Origin: Desulfosediminicola ganghwensis
GTDB lineage: Bacteria; Desulfobacterota; Desulfobulbia; Desulfobulbales; Desulfocapsaceae
DNA length: 64,000 nt
Direction of reading: 5' to 3'
Assembly: GCF_005116675.2 (NCBI RefSeq)
Contig: NZ_CP050699.1
Span: 1,635,001-1,699,000 of the forward strand
The stretch's first letter is position 1. Each line of letters begins with the position of its first letter. Below, piece by piece: positions 52,216 to 64,000 of this stretch. The position numbers and the translations under genes are program-made. The notes beneath the pieces were generated by a model. That model was not told the DNA's origin. It did no database searches and worked only from the letters and a program-made list of their open reading frames with translations.

Positions 52216-53097
52216 ATGCGCAAGATCGGATTTGTCGGACTAGGAATAATGGGCGCCCCAATGGCTGCAAATATTCTGGCTGGTGGTTGCCAATTGTATG
52301 GATGCAGCCGAAGTGGTGTTCCCCAGGGGTTGATAGATAAGGGAGCAGTTGCCTGCGCAACCGCAAAGGAAGTGGCAGAACAGGCAGATGCTGTCATAAC
52401 AATGGTTCCGGATACTCCCCATGTGGCAGAGGTCTTGTTTGGTGAAAATGGAGTCGCCGAAGGATTGAGCCCGGGCAAAGCAGTTATTGATATGAGTTCC
52501 ATATCACCGATCGAAACCAAAATGTTCGCCAAACAGATCAATGCGCTTGGCTGCGAATATCTCGATGCACCAGTATCAGGCGGAGAGGTCGGCGCCAAAG
52601 CAGCGACATTGACAATCATGGTCGGCGGGTCTGAGGGAGCCTTTGAAGCAGCAAAGCCGATCTTTGAACTTATGGGTAAAAATATTACCCACGTTGGCGC
52701 AAATGGTGATGGTCAAACCTGCAAAGTCGCCAACCAGATCATTGTTGCCCTGAACATCGAGGCGGTGGCAGAGGCCCTGCTGTTCGCTTCCAAAGCTGGG
52801 GCAGACCCTGCCCGCGTGCGCGAAGCGTTGATGGGTGGTTTTGCATCTTCAAAAATTCTGGAGGTGCATGGCGAACGCATGATCAACCGCACCTTTGAGC
52901 CGGGTTTTCGTATTGAGCTGCATCAGAAAGACCTGAACCTGGCGCTTTCCAATGCCCGGGCCATGAAGCTGAGCCTGCCAAACACTGCAACGGCGCAGGA
53001 ACTGTTCAACGCATGTACAGCAAACGGAGGAGAGGGTTGGGATCACTCCGCTATGGTACGTGCTCTTGAACTTATGGCATCCCATGAGGTTGCCTGA
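52216..53097 (+). CDS. garR: 2-hydroxy-3-oxopropionate (tartronate semialdehyde) reductase family protein
   Basis: A 293-residue beta-hydroxyacid dehydrogenase. The Rossmann motif is IGFVGLGIMGAPMAANI (residues 4-20), the substrate motif DAPVSGGEVGAKAATL (about 118-133) and the catalytic lysine is in CKVANQIIVALN (about 172-183). It likely reduces tartronate semialdehyde to glycerate with NAD(P)H. Homologues of this length also reduce succinic semialdehyde or act on 3-hydroxyisobutyrate, but the hyi neighbour supports the first choice. No glyoxylate carboligase is nearby. Confidence 0.85.
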   Translation: MRKIGFVGLGIMGAPMAANILAGGCQLYGCSRSGVPQGLIDKGAVACATAKEVAEQADAVITMVPDTPHVAEVLFGENGVAEGLSPGKAVIDMSSISPIETKMFAKQINALGCEYLDAPVSGGEVGAKAATLTIMVGGSEGAFEAAKPIFELMGKNITHVGANGDGQTCKVANQIIVALNIEAVAEALLFASKAGADPARVREALMGGFASSKILEVHGERMINRTFEPGFRIELHQKDLNLALSNARAMKLSLPNTATAQELFNACTANGGEGWDHSAMVRALELMASHEVA

Positions 53098-53428
53098 CAA
53101 ATAGCCCTGCCTGTTGTCCTGAAGAAGGAGAATGGTGCGACCCCCCATTACCCTGTTTGGGGATGGGGAGGTTGTTGGCATCATGCGGTATCATTAAAAT
53201 AAAGAAAGAGGCCTGCTGAGACGTTAACAGAATACGAAAATATTTAGTTTGGCCGAGCCGGTAACGTGTCATATCAATCCTGAATCTTTACTGTTCCCGC
53301 AATTTCAAATATGTTTATAGTAATATCGATTGTGAGCTGATCGCAGGATTACATATGAGGATTGCATTGAGTCTCCTGGAAAACTGTATTTTCCAGGTTA
53401 ATGTTGAATCTTAACGAGTTTCAGCGCC
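53098..53428. other. intergenic region with a CCCCAT/ATGGGG inverted repeat
   Basis: About 330 bases. CCCCCAT and ATGGGGA near 53141-53170 could form a stem, but no T-run follows. Nothing else was recognised. Confidence 0.35.
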
Positions 53429-55165
53429 ATGCCTGACAGAGCTCTCCGAAAGCTGGTTAACAGCATCTCTTTCCGTATCGCTTTACCATCGTTCTTCACC
53501 ATTCTGCTCTTCATCATAGCCATATTCTTTATTATTCTTCCCGAGCTGGAAAAAAGTTTCATTAGCAGGAAGCAAGAGACAATCAGGGAACTGACGGAAA
53601 CGGTCTGGAGTCTGCTGGAGTCATATTCTGAACGTGAACAGTCGGGCGAGCTGACGAGGGAAGACGCGCAGAACAGAGCCATTTCACGTATCAGAAAATT
53701 ACGATATGGCATTGATAAGAAGGACTACTTCTGGATTAATGACACGTATCCCAGGATGGTTATGCATCCGTACAGGCCGGATTTGGAGGGAAAAGACATT
53801 TCCGATTTCGAAGACCCGAACGGCGTATTCCCTTTCAGAAAATTTGTCGATCTTGTTAATAAAAAAGGCTCGGGATACATAGACTATCTGTGGCAGTGGA
53901 AAGATGATCCGCTCAAGATATCCCCTAAGTCATCCTATGTCATGGGGTTCAAGCCGTGGGGATGGATTATCGGCACCGGCATGTATTTAGATGATGTCCA
54001 CGCGGAAATGGCCGCCATACGCATCAAACTCAAGGTCATATCTGCAGGCATCCTGTTCATTGTCTCATTATTGGCCGCCTATTCGATTCGCCAGACGATG
54101 CTGGCAGACCGGGAGAGGGAAAATATTGCAATAGAGCGGGAACAGCTGCTCGAATCATTGGCGCAGAGTACTGAAAGATTTCGAAACCTGCTGGAGACGA
54201 CCAGCGACTGGATCTGGGAAACCGACAGAAGTGGCAGGTATATTTATTCAAGCCCGCGAGTAAAGGATGTGCTCGGTTACGCACCCGAAGAAACTATCAA
54301 CAAAGACCTGATGGATCTTGCATCTCCCCGTTCATCCGAGGCGTTGTCGCCCCAATATGAAGAGTTGTTGAGGGCTAAAAAGCCGTTCAGCGGCTTTGAG
54401 TGCACTTGTCTTGGCAAAGACGGGCAGGTAGTGGTGTTGGAAAACAATGCAGTGCCTGTTGTAAACGAAGAGCAGGTTCTGCTAGGTTTTCGGGGGATTG
54501 CCAGAGATATAACGGATCGGAAAGTTGCCATGGAAGCATTGAAGAAAAGCCGTGACGACCTGCGTGCCAGCCTTGAGGAAACCGTAGCGTCTCTTGCGTC
54601 AACAGCGGAAAAAAGAGATCCTTATACCGCAGGCCACCAGCTGCGGGTAGACCGTTTAGCATGTGCTATTGCCAAACAACTTGATCTTTCTGAAGATGAG
54701 ATTGAAGGGCTCCACATCGCCGCTTTGCTGCATGATATCGGCAAAATTACCCTGCCTTCCGAATATCTGGCTAAACCAACAGAACTTAGCAAGAAAGAAC
54801 GGGCGATTATCGAGTGCCACCCAGAGGTGGGGTATGAAATACTGAAACCGATTCATTTTCCATGGCCTATAGCGGATATTGTCTATCAGCATCATGAGCA
54901 TCTGGACGGAACAGGCTACCCCCAAGGGTTGATGGATAAAGATATTTTGCTTGAAGCAAAAATTCTGGCTGTTGCCGATGTGGTGGAAGCAATGTCTTCC
55001 CATCGGCCGTATCGGCCATCACTGGGGATCACTAAGGCGTTAGATGAAATTAGGGATGGACGGGGCATTCGGTATCACGCGCCAAGCGTTGACGCCTGCC
55101 TGCACCTGATCCAGGAAAAGAAGATAGAGTTCTGCACAGAAGATTGGTGCCAGATATTTCTTTAA
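53429..55165 (+). CDS. Cache-PAS-HD-GYP signalling protein, probable c-di-GMP phosphodiesterase
   Basis: A 578-residue protein. A transmembrane helix (about 21-40) is followed by a single Cache periplasmic domain (YFWINDTYPRMVMHPY, PKSSYVMGFKPWGWIIGTGMY in part), a second helix (about 203-222), a PAS domain (about 250-370) and an HD-GYP domain with HDIGKITLP, HPEVGYEIL and HHEHLDGTGYPQGL, the catalytic motifs for c-di-GMP hydrolysis. The Cache domain may bind a small organic acid. It is monocistronic. Confidence 0.92.
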   Translation: MPDRALRKLVNSISFRIALPSFFTILLFIIAIFFIILPELEKSFISRKQETIRELTETVWSLLESYSEREQSGELTREDAQNRAISRIRKLRYGIDKKDYFWINDTYPRMVMHPYRPDLEGKDISDFEDPNGVFPFRKFVDLVNKKGSGYIDYLWQWKDDPLKISPKSSYVMGFKPWGWIIGTGMYLDDVHAEMAAIRIKLKVISAGILFIVSLLAAYSIRQTMLADRERENIAIEREQLLESLAQSTERFRNLLETTSDWIWETDRSGRYIYSSPRVKDVLGYAPEETINKDLMDLASPRSSEALSPQYEELLRAKKPFSGFECTCLGKDGQVVVLENNAVPVVNEEQVLLGFRGIARDITDRKVAMEALKKSRDDLRASLEETVASLASTAEKRDPYTAGHQLRVDRLACAIAKQLDLSEDEIEGLHIAALLHDIGKITLPSEYLAKPTELSKKERAIIECHPEVGYEILKPIHFPWPIADIVYQHHEHLDGTGYPQGLMDKDILLEAKILAVADVVEAMSSHRPYRPSLGITKALDEIRDGRGIRYHAPSVDACLHLIQEKKIEFCTEDWCQIFL

Positions 55166-55329
55166 ACCAGCAGCTTACCCATCAGCATGGGTGCCCTTGA
55201 TAGTCAAAGAGAGAGGGGCAGGGTGGATCGAATTCGGCTGTTTCAATTGTCTGTCAGTTTTATTGATTCGCTCTAGATTTTACAGATTTTATTTAACCAA
55301 TACAGGTTATTGAAACTTTTTTGATCATC

Positions 55330-55974
55330 TTATCGGAGGTCGATTCGCTCTTCAATAATCCCCATGTAGCTGCGAATATGTTCTTCGGCAATTCTCCTGC
55401 TTGTCTTTTTGTCGCGTTTTTTGAGTGCATCAAGGAGTAGGCGTTGGCTTTTGAATTGATCGAACATCTGTTCCTTGCTGAAAACAAGGTAATGCCAGAA
55501 TCTGGCACCGACACTCTGGTAGTTACGGAGTAATTTTTCCAACTGTGGGTTCCCTGTGGAGGAATAAATCACATTGTGAAAATCAGATTCATGCTTCAGT
55601 AAGGCTTCACCGTCTACTCCATTTTCAATTTCCAGTGCTGCCACATTTTCAAGGATCCCGGTAAGCGCATGGAGTTCCTCTTCTGTAATCCTCTCTGCTG
55701 CCAGTTCCCCGGCGATTCCTTCGAGACCAATCCGTATTTCAGTTATTTGTTTGAGGAATTTGAAGTCCATCGGGGCAACCCAGGTTCCTGACCGTGGAAT
55801 GCGCTTTATGAGACCCTCGTTCTGGAGTTCTAAAAAAACCTCGCGCAACGGTGTTCGCCCAATTCCATACCGTTCCATAATATCTTTATCTTTCAACAAT
55901 TCGCCGGGGGCGAGTTGTTGAGTAATGATTCGATATTTAAGCCCTTCATATGTTCTTTGCTTGGTCGAGGTCAT
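55330..55974 (-). CDS. GntR/FCD-family regulator divergent from the lyase locus
   Basis: A 214-residue FadR-type regulator. The winged helix contains MERYGIGRTPLREVFLELQNEGL and RSGTWVAPM (first in parts: GIGRTPLREVFLEL). The FCD domain has the usual Asp/His pattern (HESDFHNVIYSSTGNP). It is transcribed away from the eutA-like gene, with 500 bases between them that include a 52-bp palindrome overlapping a promoter; it is the best candidate repressor of that locus. Confidence 0.9.
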   Translation of the reverse strand: MTSTKQRTYEGLKYRIITQQLAPGELLKDKDIMERYGIGRTPLREVFLELQNEGLIKRIPRSGTWVAPMDFKFLKQITEIRIGLEGIAGELAAERITEEELHALTGILENVAALEIENGVDGEALLKHESDFHNVIYSSTGNPQLEKLLRNYQSVGARFWHYLVFSKEQMFDQFKSQRLLLDALKKRDKKTSRRIAEEHIRSYMGIIEERIDLR

Positions 55975-56370
55975 GTGTTCCCTGCTCTGTTGCTATTTCG
56001 ATCTCAGCAGTCTCATCCGAAAACTGACTTCAGGAAAAGAAGGTAAGGCCATTGTAAATGGATGTGGTCCTGAGAATTCCTCATGGATTCCTCAATTAAT
56101 CCGACAAGAATATAATCCAACGAATTAAAAATGAAAACCAACTCATTTTACTCACAGAATTGTGTTCAAATAAAATTCCTGAACCTAACTGTGTATCAAT
56201 GCGAGGTGATATGTCATTAAGAATTGGCCCATTGATTTTTTATTACAACGGATTCGCGAATTTTTCCTGCAACCACTCCATTTCTTTCCCTTTTATTTCT
56301 AAGTGATTGTAACCCATAAGGGACAAAAATGTAATCAGTCAAATTGGCGAATTACAAATATGGAAGGTTT
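55975..56370. other. regulatory spacer upstream of the lyase locus
   Basis: About 400 AT-rich bases with no gene. GTAAT and ATTAC arms occur around 56331-56355. No cobalamin riboswitch was recognised even though the downstream enzyme should need AdoCbl. Confidence 0.35.
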
Positions 56371-56422
56371 TTGTATCTTGACTGCTGGTATATCAGCTAG
56401 TATATCAGTAGTCAGGATACAA
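56371..56422. promoter_or_regulatory. 52-bp palindromic operator overlapping the promoter of the eutA-like gene
   Basis: TTGTATC (56371) and GATACAA (56416) are the outer arms of an extended palindrome centred on AGCT at 56395-56398. Inner mismatches are few. The element contains TTGACT (56378), a 17-base spacer and TATATC (56401), a good sigma-70 promoter reading to the eutA-like ATG at 56476; the opposite strand has a weaker mirror promoter (CTGACT, 17 bases, TATACC). A bound regulator would block RNA polymerase. Confidence 0.75.
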
Positions 56423-56475
56423 AGCCCATTGCCTTAAAACACCCATGAAATCAGCGTGGTTTTGCAGAGAAGAAT

Positions 56476-57960
56476 ATGTCTAGCAGAGAGAAGGAATTTC
56501 ACAAAAACGGCGTAGTCACGATGGTTGGGCTTGATTTCGGCTCAACAACAAGTAGCGCGATGGTGGCTCATGCTCGTGTTGGCCGTAATTCAGTTACTGG
56601 CCGAATGGCTTTCGGTCATCCCGATATCATATACCGCTCTGAACCCGTGTTCACACCTTTTGAAAATGACAGGATCGATGAAATAGCACTGCGGGGCTAT
56701 CTCGACCGCTGGTTGCAAGCAAGTGGTATAAGAATAGATGAACTGTTCTCAGGCGGGGCAATTATCACCGGTCTGGCCACCGAAAAAGCAAATGCAGGCC
56801 GGATCGCTGAACTGGTTAAAGAGCGAGTGGGAGAAGCTATAATCGCAACGGCTTCGGATCCTTGCCTGGAGTCCTGGCTCGCCTTTATGGGCAGCTGTTC
56901 AACTCTTTCCCGCTGTCACAGCGAGCGTGCCATAATCAATCTTGATATCGGAGGTGGCACTACCAATCCGGCTCTTGGTGTAAATGGGAATGTGCTGGCT
57001 GCTGGCTGCTACTTCATCGGAGCCCGTCACTTTCAGTTTGAGCCTGGAACATATCGCCTTACCTCGATCTCCGCTTATGGTCGCGTGCTCCTGGATCACC
57101 TTGGGATTTCCAGAATAGTTGGAGACGATCTGAAGATACCTGAGCGAGACGCGATTCTTGAGTTCTATCGGATAATGCTGGAGGCAATTGTCCGAGGCAC
57201 GGATAAATTACTGGAAAGCCATGCCGCCCGATTACACACTCAGATCCCTCTGCCTACGAAAGAGTTGTCGAGAAAACCTGTAATTACTTTTTCCGGCGGA
57301 GTCGGTGAACTCATTTACAGGCATGCACTTGGCCAGCCTCTTCCCGATACCACCCATTTTGGGGATCTGGGTATAGATCTGGCTCGCTCCATCATGTCCT
57401 CGCCGATCCTTTCCGCGGGTATCTCCAAGCTTGTACCTGAAAACATGGGCAGGGCCACAGTCTATGGACTTGCCATACATAGCACCGAGGTCTCAGGGGC
57501 CACCCTGTTCCTTCCACGAAAAGAGATATTGCCCCTGCAGGATGTGCCCATCGTGGGGCGGATGTCAATGGATGCCGGTGATGAAAAAGTTCGTCAGCTT
57601 ATCAAGATGATAGCTAAAAGCGAGCGTGGGGGGGCGATACAGGTTACCGCTGCTGCTGAAGATGATCAATCTGAAGGAGTTATCAAGGGGCCGTCAGTTG
57701 AAAAAATGGAACGGGTAAAGGCCTTGGGTCAGAGGCTGTATTCTGGCGTAGTGGCTGAAGGGATCACGCCCGATACTCCGCTCATCGTGCTTGTCCCTAA
57801 CAATTGTGGCAAATCGCTGGGAAATTACGCCACTGGCTGGCGACGGCTTTCTGCCAATATCGTGGTGATCGATGAAATTCCTGACAGGAATGCGCACTTC
57901 GTCAATATTGGCCGTAATCGTAATAACATTGTGCCTGTGTCGTTTTACGGGGTGCAGTAA
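56476..57960 (+). CDS. eutA: ethanolamine ammonia-lyase reactivase-like protein (EutA family)
   Basis: A 494-residue ASKHA-fold ATPase. The phosphate-1 motif is VGLDFGSTTSSAMVA (residues 18-32), the phosphate-2 motif NLDIGGGTTNPAL (about 155-167) and the adenosine motif TFSGGVGELIY (about 273-283). EutA reactivates ethanolamine ammonia-lyase by exchanging damaged cobalamin for fresh AdoCbl. It lies 36 bases ahead of the lyase gene, as expected for a reactivase. No microcompartment shell genes are near. Confidence 0.85.
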   Translation: MSSREKEFHKNGVVTMVGLDFGSTTSSAMVAHARVGRNSVTGRMAFGHPDIIYRSEPVFTPFENDRIDEIALRGYLDRWLQASGIRIDELFSGGAIITGLATEKANAGRIAELVKERVGEAIIATASDPCLESWLAFMGSCSTLSRCHSERAIINLDIGGGTTNPALGVNGNVLAAGCYFIGARHFQFEPGTYRLTSISAYGRVLLDHLGISRIVGDDLKIPERDAILEFYRIMLEAIVRGTDKLLESHAARLHTQIPLPTKELSRKPVITFSGGVGELIYRHALGQPLPDTTHFGDLGIDLARSIMSSPILSAGISKLVPENMGRATVYGLAIHSTEVSGATLFLPRKEILPLQDVPIVGRMSMDAGDEKVRQLIKMIAKSERGGAIQVTAAAEDDQSEGVIKGPSVEKMERVKALGQRLYSGVVAEGITPDTPLIVLVPNNCGKSLGNYATGWRRLSANIVVIDEIPDRNAHFVNIGRNRNNIVPVSFYGVQ

Positions 57961-57996
57961 TGCACTCTAAAAAAAAATAAATTTGATAAACGTTTT

Positions 57997-60204
57997 ATGA
58001 AAATTATTAAATCGTTAGAAGACATATTCGTGCCTGCTCCGGGCCCTGATGAGGTATATGCAACCTCCCTCCTCGATCGGCAGTTCAACTTCAAAGGCTT
58101 GAAGAAACTGCTCGGAGCTGCAGACATCAGCAAGGCGGGTGACCGTACCGCAGGGCTTGCAGCCAAAGATGAAATGGAAAGGGAGGCGGCACGCTCAATT
58201 CTCTCAGGTCTTTCCCTGCAACATATTTACGACACGCCCCTGACCGATGGCAGCGGACGGGTCGATAGTGTCATGCGTGCCGGATACGAGATCGACCTTG
58301 AGCTGTTTCGCACGATCGCGACCATGACCGTAGGCCAACTGAAAGATCATCTCCTTGCTTCGGGCGGCGCGGAGGTTGAGCGGCTGGGTAAGGCATTAAC
58401 GCCAGTTATGGCGTCTGCTTTAGCCAAAATAATGGATGTGCATGAGCTTGTCTTCATCCCCAGGAAAATTTCCAAGCCCACCAGGGCACGAACGCTTATT
58501 GGTCTGCCGGGCTGTCTCTCATTCAGGCTTCAGCCGAATCACCCCAAGGATGATCTCGATGCAATTTCTCTCTTGGTCTATACAGATCTCAGTTTAGGCA
58601 TGGGAGACTGTCTGATCGGGGTGAATCCCTCTGAGGGCTCGGTGGATAACGTGAGCAGAATTCTTCATCACCTGGATAAACTTCGGCGAGAAACCGAAGC
58701 GCCGTCTCAGATCTGTGTTCTGGGGCATGTTAAAACTCAGCTGGCGGCTCTCGACCAGGGGGCGCCTGTGGAAATCCTCTTCCAGAGCTTTGCGGGAACG
58801 GAGAGAACACTTACCGAGGAGTTTGATGTCACCGTAGAGTTTATGGATCGGGCGTACGCGATTATGGCGGAGCGTGGTCCTCTTGCGGGTAGAGCAGATC
58901 AGTTCATGTACTTTGAGACCGGACAGGGGAGTGAGATGACCTACCGGAAGCATGACGGTATCGACATGACGACCTGCGAAGCTCTCTGTTATGGACTCTG
59001 CCGTCGCTACGACCCTTTCATGGTCAATAATGCTACAGGCTTTATTGGCCCGGAAACTCATCTGAACGATTTCGAGTTGATGGTATCTACCCTGCAGGAT
59101 CATTTTATGGGAAAAATCCTTGGTCTGCCCATGGGGATAAGCCCAAGCTATACCCTGCACTCACAGTCACATCTGGAAGGGCAGCAGATGGCCGTTCAGC
59201 TGGCGACAGCCGCAGGTGCGAACTTTTTTATGGATGTTTACTTGGGGGCCGATCGCATGCTGGCCCATTTTGTGAACAGTGGCCATGACGACCAGACCAT
59301 GCGGGAGATTTACAATCGGAATCCTGCCCCAGAATTTCTCCGATGGGCGGTTGACCGGGGGATCTTCGAGCAGACTCCTGACGGCAGGGTGACGAGGGGG
59401 CCGAACTGGGGCAATCCCAGGCTGTTCATTTCCTCAGACGCGGAGTTTCAGCGATTGCGGGAATCCCTTCCCAACGCCCCCGGTTTCGACAACGCAGGTC
59501 CTCGTCCCGTCAATGCTGTACAGCGGGTTCTCCGGGCTAACCAGGCTGTAGGGCGAGAGGCTGTGCACAGCGACCTGAGATTTGCCGAATTGGCGTCATT
59601 CAACTTTCGAACCTTGTCCACTTTGGCTGTGGCCAAGGTCGATCATCTGAAAAACCCTGAGCTTGGCTCACGGCTCAGCCCTGAATCTGCTGCAACGCTT
59701 ACCCCAGAGCACCGGGACGTGCAGATTGTCGTAACAGACGGACTCAGCGCAGAGGCGGTTCACCATAATATCTCAGATTTGCTGCCTGTGCTCCAGGATG
59801 GTCTGGCCAGTCGGGATTTTACCATGGGGCAGCCCATACTCGTTCCGTATGGGCGGGTAAAACTGGTCGAGGCATTGGGGGAAGCCCTGAAACCGCAGCT
59901 GCTGATTCTGCTGGTCGGGGAACGCCCAGGTGGAGATGCCCTGTCATCAAGGAGCCTTTCAGCCTATCTGGCTATCAGGCTTGCCGACAGTTCGTCGCTG
60001 CCGGAAGCCATACGCTACAGCGGCAACGCCAGTATCGTATATGAGTACACGCTGATCACCAATATCTATGCTGGAGGGCTTCCTGCGGTTGAGGCGGGAA
60101 GTGTCGTCGCGGAAAAAGCGATGGAAATACTCGAACATCAAGCCGCAGGAAATAGACTGGAAGATATTCTCGCACGGCTCGAGGGAGTTAACGAACACCT
60201 TTGA
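57997..60204 (+). CDS. eutBC: single-chain ethanolamine ammonia-lyase homologue (EutB-EutC fusion)
   Basis: A 735-residue protein joining a EutB-like large-subunit domain (about 1-480) and a EutC-like small-subunit domain (about 495-735; VVTDGLSAEAVHHN, ILLVGERPGGDALSS, ITNIYAGGLPAVEAG). EutB residues R160, Q162, N193 and E287 correspond to Arg177, Gln179, Asn210 and Glu307, but D362, which holds the substrate ammonium, aligns without gaps to Ser382 (MGISPSYTLHS in place of MGCDICYTNHA). The fold and cobalamin mechanism should remain, so the substrate is probably an amino alcohol or diol other than ethanolamine. The ribosome-binding site is weak. The small-subunit N-terminal microcompartment tag is absent because of the fusion. 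Confidence 0.88.
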   Translation: MKIIKSLEDIFVPAPGPDEVYATSLLDRQFNFKGLKKLLGAADISKAGDRTAGLAAKDEMEREAARSILSGLSLQHIYDTPLTDGSGRVDSVMRAGYEIDLELFRTIATMTVGQLKDHLLASGGAEVERLGKALTPVMASALAKIMDVHELVFIPRKISKPTRARTLIGLPGCLSFRLQPNHPKDDLDAISLLVYTDLSLGMGDCLIGVNPSEGSVDNVSRILHHLDKLRRETEAPSQICVLGHVKTQLAALDQGAPVEILFQSFAGTERTLTEEFDVTVEFMDRAYAIMAERGPLAGRADQFMYFETGQGSEMTYRKHDGIDMTTCEALCYGLCRRYDPFMVNNATGFIGPETHLNDFELMVSTLQDHFMGKILGLPMGISPSYTLHSQSHLEGQQMAVQLATAAGANFFMDVYLGADRMLAHFVNSGHDDQTMREIYNRNPAPEFLRWAVDRGIFEQTPDGRVTRGPNWGNPRLFISSDAEFQRLRESLPNAPGFDNAGPRPVNAVQRVLRANQAVGREAVHSDLRFAELASFNFRTLSTLAVAKVDHLKNPELGSRLSPESAATLTPEHRDVQIVVTDGLSAEAVHHNISDLLPVLQDGLASRDFTMGQPILVPYGRVKLVEALGEALKPQLLILLVGERPGGDALSSRSLSAYLAIRLADSSSLPEAIRYSGNASIVYEYTLITNIYAGGLPAVEAGSVVAEKAMEILEHQAAGNRLEDILARLEGVNEHL

Positions 60205-60279
60205 AAGCATATACAACGCTGCTGCCGCTGACGCCGTAGCAATCAATCAACACATCAATCCCCCAAAGGAGGAAAGACC

Positions 60280-61323
60280 ATGATGTACCCTGTCAAACAT
60301 TTCAAGAAGGCCATGTGCACTCTGGTGGCCCTGTCGATGTTCGCGCTGACTGGCCCAGCTGGCGTGGAAGCCGGTTCCGTAAAAATGAAATTTTCTCATC
60401 AGAACAACGTCTATGATGCTGATCAGTTACTGGCCGAGACCTTCAAGCAGCTGCTGGAAGAGCGAACCGACGGTGGGATTAAAGTCGCTATTTATCCGGG
60501 AACCCTGACCACCAGCGAAGAAGAGGCGATGGAATTCGTCAAATCCGGAACTGTCGATGTTGATACCAACTCAGCCGGACACCTTGCAGGATTTTATAAA
60601 GATATTCAATTTCTGCAGCTGCCCTACCTATTCAAAAGTCCAGCCCATTATAAAGTGGCCAGGCAGTCAGGGGTTATCAAAGAGATACTCGCTGAGCTTG
60701 AAAAGGCAACGGGGTTGATTGCTCTCGGTATCTATTCAGACTGTAACGGTTTTGCCATTGCCAGCACCAAGCCGATTAAGAGCATCCAGGATGCGAAGGG
60801 AACAAAACTGCGTTGTATGCAGAATCCTCTCTTTGTGGATATCTACAGCGAGTTCGGGTTTACCGTTACCCCCACAGACTGGGGTGAACTCTACACTTCC
60901 CTGCAGACTGGCCTGGTGGAGGCAGACGACCTCGGCGTGTATTGTAACAACATCTTCAAGATGAGTGAGGTGGTAAGTAATTATGCAATCCTCCGTCAGA
61001 TGTGGACGCAGAAAGTCGTCTTCATCTCTCCAAAGACCTGGGCCAAGCTCTCTGGAGAACAACAGGAGCTGGTACGCTCCGTAGCCAATGATGCGATTGA
61101 ACTCACCGATGCATGGCAATACGCTCGGGAGCAGGAGGCCATCGAAAAGGTACAAGCTGCAGGCGGTACCGTGACATATCCGGATACTGCCCCGTTTAAA
61201 GCGGCTTCTGAGAAAGTTTACGAAAAGTGGTTTGCGAGTAATCCGCACTGGAAAGCCTGGTACGATCAGATCCAGTTTCTTGATCCTGATGCGAGAATGC
61301 CAAAAGCATACGAAATCAAATAG
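60280..61323 (+). CDS. dctP: TRAP transporter substrate-binding protein (DctP type)
   Basis: A 347-residue periplasmic protein with a signal peptide (residues 10-32, ending VEA-G). TSLQTGLVEADDLGVYCNN and PTDWGELYTSLQTG are typical of TRAP DctP. KLRCMQNPLFVDIYSEFG (about residues 170-187) keeps the arginine that pairs with a substrate carboxylate in most TRAP proteins. AGGAGG lies seven bases before the ATG. It follows the lyase gene by 75 bases and precedes the membrane subunits, so it should import the lyase substrate. Confidence 0.9.
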   Translation: MMYPVKHFKKAMCTLVALSMFALTGPAGVEAGSVKMKFSHQNNVYDADQLLAETFKQLLEERTDGGIKVAIYPGTLTTSEEEAMEFVKSGTVDVDTNSAGHLAGFYKDIQFLQLPYLFKSPAHYKVARQSGVIKEILAELEKATGLIALGIYSDCNGFAIASTKPIKSIQDAKGTKLRCMQNPLFVDIYSEFGFTVTPTDWGELYTSLQTGLVEADDLGVYCNNIFKMSEVVSNYAILRQMWTQKVVFISPKTWAKLSGEQQELVRSVANDAIELTDAWQYAREQEAIEKVQAAGGTVTYPDTAPFKAASEKVYEKWFASNPHWKAWYDQIQFLDPDARMPKAYEIK

Positions 61324-61448
61324 TTGATATCATGTAGCAAGCATACTGGTCCTCTCAGGACTTTTGGCTTGGGCAGGGCCGGTATGAATTGCTCATCGGT
61401 GAACCCGGTGGAGTTTGCTGGAAAAAGTTGCCAAGGAAAGAGGGTGAA

Positions 61449-61964
61449 ATGGAAGATATCGAGGTAAAACCTCATACAACTGCAGGAGTAATGGCCCAGA
61501 CTGTTCGAGTGACGAAAGTCGTTACCTGTACATACATTTCAGTTCTGCTGGTTGGAATGGGGCTGGTGCTAGGGGCAAGCATTCTCCTTCGGTTCTTCTT
61601 CGACCAACCCGTAGCCTGGTCCAACACCATAACACGGTATGCCTACATCCATATTGTTCTGCTGGGGGCAGCTGTCTCCTACATGGAGGGTAGCCATGCC
61701 CAGATTGATGTGATTTACCAGTGGGTACCCCGAAAGATGCAGCTTGGTTTTGACCTTGTCCATAATGGTGTGATGCTGTTTCTCTGCTCTGTCCTGACGG
61801 TGATGGGGGCCAAGCACGTTGTAAATATGTGGCAGGTGCACTCGCCTATTATTACTGGTTTTCCAGTGGGTGTTGTGTACCTCGCAGTACCGTTGTGTGC
61901 TGTGGTTATGGTGATATTCATATTCCAGCGATTAGTTGAATTGAAAGATAGGAAAGAGGGTTGA
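61449..61964 (+). CDS. dctQ: TRAP transporter small membrane subunit (DctQ type)
   Basis: A 171-residue protein with four transmembrane helices (about residues 22-46, 58-80, 92-112 and 135-158), typical of TRAP small subunits, including EGSHAQIDVIYQWVP. The ATG at 61449 follows GAGGGTGAA; a longer frame from 61389 is possible but less likely. The stop codon is two bases before the ATG of the large subunit. Confidence 0.88.
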   Translation: MEDIEVKPHTTAGVMAQTVRVTKVVTCTYISVLLVGMGLVLGASILLRFFFDQPVAWSNTITRYAYIHIVLLGAAVSYMEGSHAQIDVIYQWVPRKMQLGFDLVHNGVMLFLCSVLTVMGAKHVVNMWQVHSPIITGFPVGVVYLAVPLCAVVMVIFIFQRLVELKDRKEG

Positions 61965-61966
61965 GC

Positions 61967-63247
61967 ATGTTGTACATTGCACTGATGGTAATCTGTTTTT
62001 TTGTTCTCATGGCAATACGGGTACCGATCCCCTTTGCTTTGCTCGCTTCAACTCTGGTCTACTATTTCGGCGCTGAACTGCCGCTCAATATTGTGGTGGT
62101 TCGTCTTCTGCGTTCATTCGATTCGTTTATCCTGCTGGCCATCCCTTTCTTCATCCTCGCAGGTCGAATCATGTCCGAGGCGGGAATCAGCGACCGGTTG
62201 ATCCGGGTGGCTGACCTTATCGTCGGGAGAGTCAAAGGCAGCCTGGCGTACACAAATATTGTGGTCAGCATGTTCTTTGGCGGTATCACCGGTACAGCCA
62301 TTTCAGATACCACAGCAATTGGTTCTATCCTTATTCCCTCAATGGTGAAAAAGGGGTACTCGAGAAGCTTCAGTGCCGCAGTTACTGCTGCCTCATCAAC
62401 CATGGGTCCTATCATTCCCCCGAGCCTCATGTTCATCATATATGGCTCCATTGCCCAGGTCTCCATTCGGGATATGTTTCTTGCCGGCGCTATTCCCGGG
62501 TTGCTGGTCGGAATCTCACAGATGGCGGTGGTGAAAATTCATGCCATCAAGAATGACCTCCCCAGAAGGGAGGAAACGATTTCTCCTCGTGAGGCGTGCA
62601 TAATTGTTCGGGACGCCTCTCTGGCTATCCTGCTGCCGGTAATAATTCTCGGCGGGATCCTTCTCGGAATCGTCAGTCCCACCGAGGCGGCGGTCGTGGC
62701 TGCCTTTTATGCCGGTATCATCGCCATGTTTGTTTACCGGACTCTGAGCGTGAGACGGCTGCTGACGGTAATCAAAGAGTCCGCGGTTGAGACTGGCAGC
62801 GTTTCGATAATTATCGCTGCTGCTGCTCTTTTTGGCTGGGCGTTGTCCAACGAGCAGGCCCCTCAGATGTTTGCAGAATGGCTGATGGATAGTTCATTAT
62901 CGAAATGGCAGATCCTGTTGATGATCAACCTGATGCTGTTTGGGCTCGGGATGTTCATGGACAGCATTCCAGCCATCATGATTGTGACGCCTGTCTTGCT
63001 GCCTCTCTTTAACATGCTCAACATTGACCCACTGCATGCCGGTTTATTCATGAGCGTTAATCTCATTACCGGTCTTGCCACACCGCCCGTTGGCTGCTGT
63101 CTGTTTGCTGCCTCGATAATATCAGAGTCACCAATGGAGAAGATAAGCCGGGCAATCCTGCCTTTTCTCCTGGCGAATGTTATTGTGGTGTTGCTGGTAA
63201 CATATATTCCCAGCATATCTTTATTTATTCCTTCTTTATTGAAGTAA
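61967..63247 (+). CDS. dctM: TRAP transporter large membrane subunit (DctM type)
   Basis: A 426-residue polytopic protein of the DctM family with about 12 transmembrane helices. Family segments are visible: GRIMSEAGISDRLIRVADL, FGGITGTAISDTTAIGSIL and PPSLMFIIYG. It uses a sodium or proton gradient to move the substrate delivered by the DctP protein. It ends the transporter operon; a hairpin with arms CAATTGCA...TTGCAATTG follows at 63273-63327. Confidence 0.92.
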   Translation: MLYIALMVICFFVLMAIRVPIPFALLASTLVYYFGAELPLNIVVVRLLRSFDSFILLAIPFFILAGRIMSEAGISDRLIRVADLIVGRVKGSLAYTNIVVSMFFGGITGTAISDTTAIGSILIPSMVKKGYSRSFSAAVTAASSTMGPIIPPSLMFIIYGSIAQVSIRDMFLAGAIPGLLVGISQMAVVKIHAIKNDLPRREETISPREACIIVRDASLAILLPVIILGGILLGIVSPTEAAVVAAFYAGIIAMFVYRTLSVRRLLTVIKESAVETGSVSIIIAAAALFGWALSNEQAPQMFAEWLMDSSLSKWQILLMINLMLFGLGMFMDSIPAIMIVTPVLLPLFNMLNIDPLHAGLFMSVNLITGLATPPVGCCLFAASIISESPMEKISRAILPFLLANVIVVLLVTYIPSISLFIPSLLK

Positions 63248-63675
63248 TGATTTTGATCCAGGGTGGTGCCGCCAATTGCATAAGGTTTTGCTTGGTACGC
63301 TCTATGAGATGCATAGCCTTGCAATTGAGGGCTTTGTTCGGAGGAAGCCTTGCTTGCTCTGGTGCCATCAACCACCTCCCTTGCTGGAGTTTGGCGGCAA
63401 CATACCCATGGTGTCTGGAGTCGAGGGAGGCAAGACGGTACAAGGACGTTTAAACAGTATTTTATCGTGAATGTCACCCTGCTTTTACTATAGGGTCGAA
63501 GGTCACTGAGGCGTTCTGTGCCGTTCACCATTAAAAAAGTGGGTACAGGTGGTAGCCACGCAAAATACATCCTGTTGGATGCTCTGATCCTTCGCGAAAA
63601 TTTGATAACCCCTGGCTGTAATACAGCAAAGAAATGACGAAAAGCTCGCTAGGGGTAAGAATTTTCTTTGGGAAA
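63248..63675. other. intergenic region with a hairpin after the TRAP operon
   Basis: CAATTGCATAAGG (63273) and CCTTGCAATTG (63317) can pair with a two-base bulge. Short frames in this region lack known domains. The remainder shows nothing recognisable up to a structured element at about 63676. Confidence 0.4.
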
Positions 63676-63745
63676 CGCCTGGTACGGACCCCTCATGCCA
63701 GGTGTTGCGGGGGCGGGGGAGAAAAACCTTCGGCTGTCCGATTAG
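63672..63745 (+). ncRNA. group II intron domain V/VI-like remnant
   Basis: AACGCCTGG and CCAGGTGTT form a nine-base stem with one G-U pair, and a 34-base element with a CGC-type triad and GGAC loop is followed by a G-rich stem. This resembles the 3' end of some bacterial group II introns. No maturase frame is upstream, so this would be a solitary tail or a chance structure. Confidence 0.3.
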
Positions 63746-63788
63746 GGTTTTTTCAATAGAGATTGCTCACATACTCAGCAGTATATTT

Positions 63789-63812
63789 GTAAGCGGTAAT
63801 TAAACCCCACTC
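63789..63812 (-). repeat. probable IS66-type terminal inverted repeat
   Basis: GTAAGCGGTAATTAAACCCC starts with GTAAGCG, the usual tip of IS66-family ends, and contains the transposase stop codon. The preceding GTATATTT would be an 8-base target duplication, which cannot be checked because the other end is outside the window. Confidence 0.5.
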
Positions 63813-64000
63813 ACATTTCCAGCTATTCGTAGATCGTCAGCTTTTAAATTCATCGGCAAAAGTTTCAACAGCTCTGAACGAGATTCTGCAAACGGTAATT
63901 TTTCAAATAGATATCGAAGGTAGTTATACGGTTCCAAATTATTGGCCTTGGCTGTTTCAACCAGGCTATAGATCACGGCGCTCGCCTTAGCACCTTCCTG
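63800..64000 (-). mobile_element. IS66-family transposase, C-terminal part
   Basis: A minus-strand frame open to the right window edge encodes 66 residues and a stop. GAKASAVIYSLVETAKANN, LEPYNYLRYLFEKLP and ELLKLLPMNL match the C-terminal tail of IS66 TnpC transposases, which ends with a short post-catalytic region (DDLRIAGNVSGV here). The remainder, including the DDE residues, lies beyond the window, so it is not known whether the element is intact. Confidence 0.88.

Follow-up and report, generated by a model that had tools for sequence, protein, structure and literature searches.

The gene at 57997..60204 of the window (the whole 64,000-nucleotide stretch of Desulfosediminicola ganghwensis DNA analysed here) encodes a single-chain EutB-EutC lyase from a family in which every member has lost Asp362 of E. 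coli EutB, a residue that reportedly contacts the substrate amino group and that we take to contact that group only. We propose, with a probability of roughly 0.4, that this is an AdoCbl lyase with a distinct, N-methylated substrate, the methylated amine being suggested by one operon and a weak genome association. It is probable that the substrate is something other than ethanolamine. As judged from sequence comparison, the fused gene would represent a paralogous amino-alcohol lyase family beside ethanolamine ammonia-lyase (EAL), with a rebuilt ammonium pocket.

A single-chain lyase encoded next to eutA

An earlier note on this DNA had described both EAL subunits as joined in one chain of 735 residues, and a single open frame does carry EutB followed by EutC, each Pfam match lying far over its cut-off. 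The curated NCBIfam cut-offs are missed for EutB (407 versus 554 bits) and EutC (133 versus 230 bits). The EutC part can be aligned with E. coli EutC chains, minus the N-terminal extension of the E. coli protein. The gene, its parts, and its neighbours in the 5.65-Mb host genome are as follows:

55330..55974, - strand: GntR/FCD-family regulator, divergent from the operon (PF00392 and PF07729)
56476..57960, + strand: eutA, reactivating factor, ending 36 bp before the lyase gene (PF06277, 233.5 bits)
57997..60204, + strand: single-chain EutB-EutC lyase, 735 aa (Pfam EutB and EutC in one frame; 18 distinct fused homologues including this protein)
58084..59373, + strand: EutB (TIM-barrel) part, residues 30-459 (PF06751, 425.6 bits; model matches 3abo_A, VIA Z 48.0)
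59443..60159, + strand: EutC part, residues 483-721 (PF05985, 149 bits)
60280..61323, + strand: DctP, TRAP solute-binding protein (PF03480; aligned to 4mhf; Arg of the KLR(C/A)MQNP motif kept)
61389..61964, + strand: DctQ, TRAP small permease (PF04290)
61961..63247, + strand: DctM, TRAP large permease (PF06808)

No other EutA in the genome passes the cut-off, and in 13 of the 18 loci eutA is the gene immediately before the fused one. DctP is conserved in five marine fused-gene loci, and TRAP genes are absent from 13 of 18. In Desulfosediminicola flagellatus the orthologue of the GntR/FCD regulator, 77% identical, lies downstream of the operon. Among the open reading frames scanned around 52216-63247, there are no BMC shell, eutE/eutG, or aldehyde dehydrogenase genes beside the lyase; an Rfam scan of 53000-64000 gave no match, and no inverted repeats were found in the gap before eutA. 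The stretch before the lyase start (57960-57997) holds no clear Shine-Dalgarno sequence; the start itself is conserved in homologues.

The fused proteins form one conserved clade

A homologue search over genomes and plasmids yielded 18 distinct fused proteins, counting that of the window, to which the other 17 are 57 to 87% identical. They come from Desulfosediminicola, uncultured Vibrio and Psychromonas, Xanthobacter tagetidis, two Aquabacter, a Methylocystis plasmid (where the protein is annotated as ethanolamine ammonia-lyase), two SZAS proteobacterial MAGs, five Oligoflexales/Bdellovibrio-like genomes, and one further alpha- and one further gammaproteobacterium. The closest relative with the gene is D. 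flagellatus, of the same genus, whose protein is 87% identical. The fused gene is rare, being found in 2 of 398 genomes in an even sample of one phylum and, for the Bdellovibrio-like phylum, in 5 of 58. The fused proteins group as one clade (bootstrap 100) on a stem of 0.96 substitutions per site. Comparison of the window gene with its orthologue in D. flagellatus gives a dN of 0.09 and only 45% identity at third positions, which indicates strong purifying selection on the fused protein.

The amino-group pocket is altered throughout the clade

Residues were numbered against E. coli EutB (3abo_A), aligned by phmmer. From Glu287 to Asp362 the alignment is gap-free, with a constant offset of 20, placing Glu287 at Glu307 and position 362 at Ser382, just as the earlier note had counted; the matches that it gave for Arg160, Gln162, and Asn193 are likewise recovered, as Arg177, Gln179, and Asn210. 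We take Arg177, Gln179, Asn210, and Glu307 to hold the substrate hydroxyl and to drive amine migration, and since all four are kept, the EAL chemistry is probably unchanged. The pocket positions, all on the + strand, are as follows:

58525..58533, + strand: Arg177-Leu-Gln179 (E. coli Arg160, Gln162), invariant in the fused clade (alignment)
58624..58626, + strand: Asn210 (Asn193) (alignment; fused-clade comparison)
58915..58917, + strand: Glu307 (Glu287) (alignment; fused-clade comparison)
59029..59037, + strand: Asn345 and Thr347 (Thr325, Val327), clade-specific, on barrel strand 6 (model strand 342-347); Asn345 is common to the unfused Ala362 EutBs
59140..59145, + strand: Ser382-Pro383, in place of Asp362 and its neighbour (alignment; model strand 379-383)
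59233..59235, + strand: Asp413 (Gly393), an acid (Asp or Glu) throughout the fused clade (alignment; after model strand 410-412)

Residue counts were taken from 100 aligned EutBs, 18 fused and 82 others. Asp362, whose replacement by serine the earlier note had suggested following through other fused homologues, is absent from all 18, with Ser in 5 and Ala in 13; it is kept in 80 of the 82 others, so the change is not due to chance. Position 393 is Asp (16) or Glu (2) in the fused proteins, compared with Gly, Ala, Ser, or Thr in all 82 others. The acid gained by the window protein is Asp413, at a position that is Gly in most EutBs. To say that the ammonium carboxylate is simply lost is an incomplete account, because every fused member has gained Asp or Glu at 393 on the neighbouring strand. 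Asp419, considered as a stand-in for Asp362, corresponds to E. coli Asp399, which is conserved in ordinary EutBs too, and was rejected.

Positions specific to the fused clade include V327T, E347Q, Ala/Ser362-Pro363, D375G, D377Q, and G393D/E. Several of these changes remove acids (E347Q, D362S/A, D375G, D377Q, and D398 to a neutral residue) and others add bases (A298K, I400R); segment 340-410 has a net charge of -4.4 in the fused proteins versus -7.7 in other EutBs. A loop cited earlier as a changed CDICYTNH is indeed changed, reading GISPSYTLH in the window protein; E. coli has GCDCCYTNH, and GVDICYTNH is the form in many homologues.

An AlphaFold2 model of residues 1-491, for which two ordinary EutBs from viral contigs were added to the alignment, has a pLDDT of 87 and a pTM of 0.90; a model of the full-length protein, built from 13 fused sequences, had a poor barrel (pLDDT 66.5) and was discarded. 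The model adopts the EAL fold, matching 3abo_A with an rmsd of 2.0 Å over 447 residues, and also matches diol dehydratase (VIA Z 19-20). Strands 175-178, 206-210, 304-308, 379-383, and 410-412 carry or adjoin Arg177/Gln179, Asn210, Glu307, Ser382, and Asp413, a predicted placement that fits a shared catalytic face. Ser382 is within strand 379-383 and Asp413 comes immediately after strand 410-412, both in the region of the catalytic barrel strands; the ten-residue blocks with these two residues have a mean pLDDT of 51 to 57, so side-chain geometry is not to be read from the model. Ordinary EutB genes are present on two contigs of the IMG/VR viral collection (L184, L185), probably as host flank of proviruses.

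Ordinary and variant EutBs in the same and other genomes

A two-subunit EutB with Asp362 is also present in 13 of the 17 fused-gene genomes; three fused-gene MAGs have no ordinary EutB, and none was seen in one more genome at the threshold used. The ordinary eutBC of the window genome (L043:6387-11735; 0.46 Mb, 459 kb) follows the genes of a TRAP transporter (DctP, DctQ, DctM), and no EutA is encoded close to it. A third EutB of this genome (L044:7820-9165; 2.29 Mb) is split into two overlapping frames and is either a pseudogene or the product of a sequencing error.

Two unfused EutBs from the window organism's family, L007 and L008, also lack Asp362. They have M322, N325, T334, A362, P363, and Q376 in common with the fused clade and carry Gly393, so Asp362 can be lost without an acid being gained at 393. 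In a tree with L017-L019 as outgroup, both are basal branches of the two-subunit group, and the common pocket signature could thus reflect shared ancestry or convergence alike. L008 sits in a eutS-eutP-eutB-eutC-eutA microcompartment locus (L041:1338-6040) and shares 58% identity with C. difficile EutB, an ordinary microcompartment protein that keeps Asp362. A second, distant fused EutB-EutC clade, 27 to 29% identical, keeps Asp362 (L019 at L046:8423-10777, L017 at L045:7986-10382, and L018). Given these proteins and the two unfused EutBs without Asp362, fusion and Asp362 loss are separable. One member of the distant clade starts with a Tat-like signal (MHRRTFLAMMGIAGAALAGVTLA), which, going by its sequence, would imply an exported EAL-like protein.

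Linkage to methylated-amine genes in one genome

The fused gene of one gammaproteobacterium, G662, lies in an operon with an informative gene content:

L140:998-11335 and L148:117-3199, one strand throughout: methylated-amine operon with eutA-eutBC

The upstream genes encode a GMAS-type ligase, a class II amidotransferase, FwdC-like and glutamate-synthase-like proteins, PurU, and SoxB/SoxA/SoxG-like proteins, a set that we take to be the N-methylglutamate pathway of methylamine oxidation. After the SoxG-like gene come eutA, the fused eutBC, and genes for a DASS symporter, DmmA, a reductase, and a HODM-alpha-like (haem-dependent N-demethylase alpha-like) protein. The stop codon of the SoxG-like gene overlaps the start of eutA, and the pathway genes and eutA-eutBC are thus very probably a single transcription unit, from which a gap of about 1 kb separates the DASS and Dmm genes that follow. 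The transporter, suspected initially of being a BCCT protein, proved to be the DASS symporter. With this linkage, a lyase releasing methylated amine would feed the N-methylglutamate pathway directly.

The association was also examined across genomes. DmmA is found in 5 of 6 alphaproteobacterial fused-gene genomes versus 10 of 30 order-mates with ordinary EutB only (one-sided Fisher p of 0.035, uncorrected for phylogeny). The GMAS-type ligase is not significantly associated (5 of 6 versus 18 of 30 controls, p of 0.28). No homologues of the G662 methylamine genes were found near the fused gene in the window or at the other 16 loci, and DmmA is absent from the Desulfosediminicola, Vibrio, Psychromonas, and Bdellovibrio-like host genomes. 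A search for MttB gave only weak matches in the two Desulfosediminicola genomes, none linked to the operon.

A proposed reaction and the alternatives

The earlier note had suggested a relaxed or different substrate. The latter is favoured by the fixation of Asp362 loss in a monophyletic family, by the other pocket changes, and by the ordinary EutB in most of the same genomes. Relaxation is not: the pocket is tightly conserved among proteins that are 57 to 87% identical, under purifying selection. A substrate with a methylated nitrogen would be consistent with losing an acid that forms a hydrogen bond to the amino group. Tentatively, the clade may be a B12-dependent family, evolved from EAL, that frees methylamine, dimethylamine, or trimethylamine from N-methylated ethanolamines, including choline. 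By analogy with the known family, the 5'-deoxyadenosyl radical of AdoCbl would take a hydrogen at the hydroxyl-bearing carbon, and a 1,2-shift or loss of the amine would follow, with release of an aldehyde or ketone and the amine. The amino-group pocket would be rebuilt through Ser/Ala for Asp362, with Pro383, Asn345, Thr347, and Asp/Glu413, so that N-methylethanolamine, N,N-dimethylethanolamine, or choline would give acetaldehyde and the methylated amine. EutA would presumably reactivate the lyase, as in EAL, and the TRAP transporter would be an addition of the marine operons and the GntR regulator one of Desulfosediminicola. Against an N-methylated substrate stand the restriction of the methylamine-gene linkage to G662, the weak DmmA association, and the TRAP and DASS transporters of the window and G662, which usually carry anions; the gained Asp/Glu413, moreover, could simply bind a primary ammonium.

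That last point leads to an EAL whose ammonium carboxylate has moved from 362 on strand 7 to 393 on strand 8, making the fused protein an EutA-partnered isozyme for other conditions. The acid at 393 accompanies Asp362 loss in all 18 members, Ser382 and Asp413 sit at the ends of neighbouring strands in the model, and every other substrate contact is kept. We nevertheless consider such an isozyme doubtful, since an ordinary EutB is already encoded in 13 of 17 genomes, the pocket signature occurs together with Gly393 in the two unfused Ala362-Pro363 EutBs, and the clade has many further changes of its own. The charge pattern invites another explanation, an amino alcohol bearing a carboxylate or sulfonate and imported by TRAP (or by DASS in G662), with the loss of acids round the pocket making room for the charge. 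The lost acids, the gained bases, and the less negative 340-410 segment agree with this, as does the TRAP Arg kept in the window DctP, which we take to be the carboxylate-binding Arg of solved TRAP relatives. An anionic substrate is still unlikely: an acid is gained at 393, 13 of 18 loci are without TRAP genes, and the ordinary EutBC of the window genome also adjoins a TRAP transporter, which makes TRAP no guide to charge.

Were Asp362 to contact the amino group only, an EAL fold without it might dehydrate a 1,2-diol, and the model does match diol dehydratase. The acid gained at 393, the concern of the sole informative operon (G662) with amines, and the pairing with EutA rather than with a diol dehydratase reactivase make this very unlikely. 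Decay into a non-catalytic EAL paralogue, to which the loss of one substrate-contact residue might point, is barely credible given strong conservation over several bacterial groups, a dN of 0.09 for two species whose third positions are close to saturation, and conserved EutA pairing.

Significance and comparison with known systems

To our knowledge, EAL has been treated as a one-substrate family, with homologues annotated as ethanolamine ammonia-lyase. A search of the open literature gave nothing relevant on fused forms of EutBC, on paralogues of EAL, or on methylated substrates for EAL. If the clade acts on methylated amino alcohols, that annotation is wrong for it, and a cobalamin route from choline and its relatives to methylated amines would exist beside the glycyl radical route. 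The family would span predator-like bacteria as well as marine and soil ones, a microcompartment locus shows much of its pocket signature too, and the pocket residues involved could be read from sequence. Even with another substrate, the coupled 362/393 change amounts, together with the ordinary enzyme in the same genomes and the unfused Ala362 EutBs, to a natural experiment on amino-group recognition.

EutBC (EC 4.3.1.7; E. coli 3abo) resembles the fused lyase in fold, in its EutB and EutC domains, in Arg160, Gln162, Asn193, and Glu287, and in its EutA partner. The fused lyase differs in being a single chain, in having Ser/Ala for Asp362 together with Asp/Glu393, Pro363, Asn325, and Thr327, in scoring under the NCBIfam cut-offs, and in usually being co-resident with ordinary EutBC. 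The unfused Ala362-Pro363 EutBs (L007; L008/L041) share the loss of Asp362 and the residues Pro363, Asn325, Thr334, and Gln376, whereas they have two subunits and Gly393 and are microcompartment-associated. PduCDE, an AdoCbl diol dehydratase, has a similar TIM-barrel AdoCbl fold but is only 14% identical and has a different reactivase. The choline TMA-lyase CutC, a glycyl radical enzyme, can be compared by proposed reaction only: should the hypothesis hold, both would convert a methylated ethanolamine to acetaldehyde and a methylated amine, and the fused lyase, with its unrelated fold and other radical source, would be the cobalamin counterpart of CutC.
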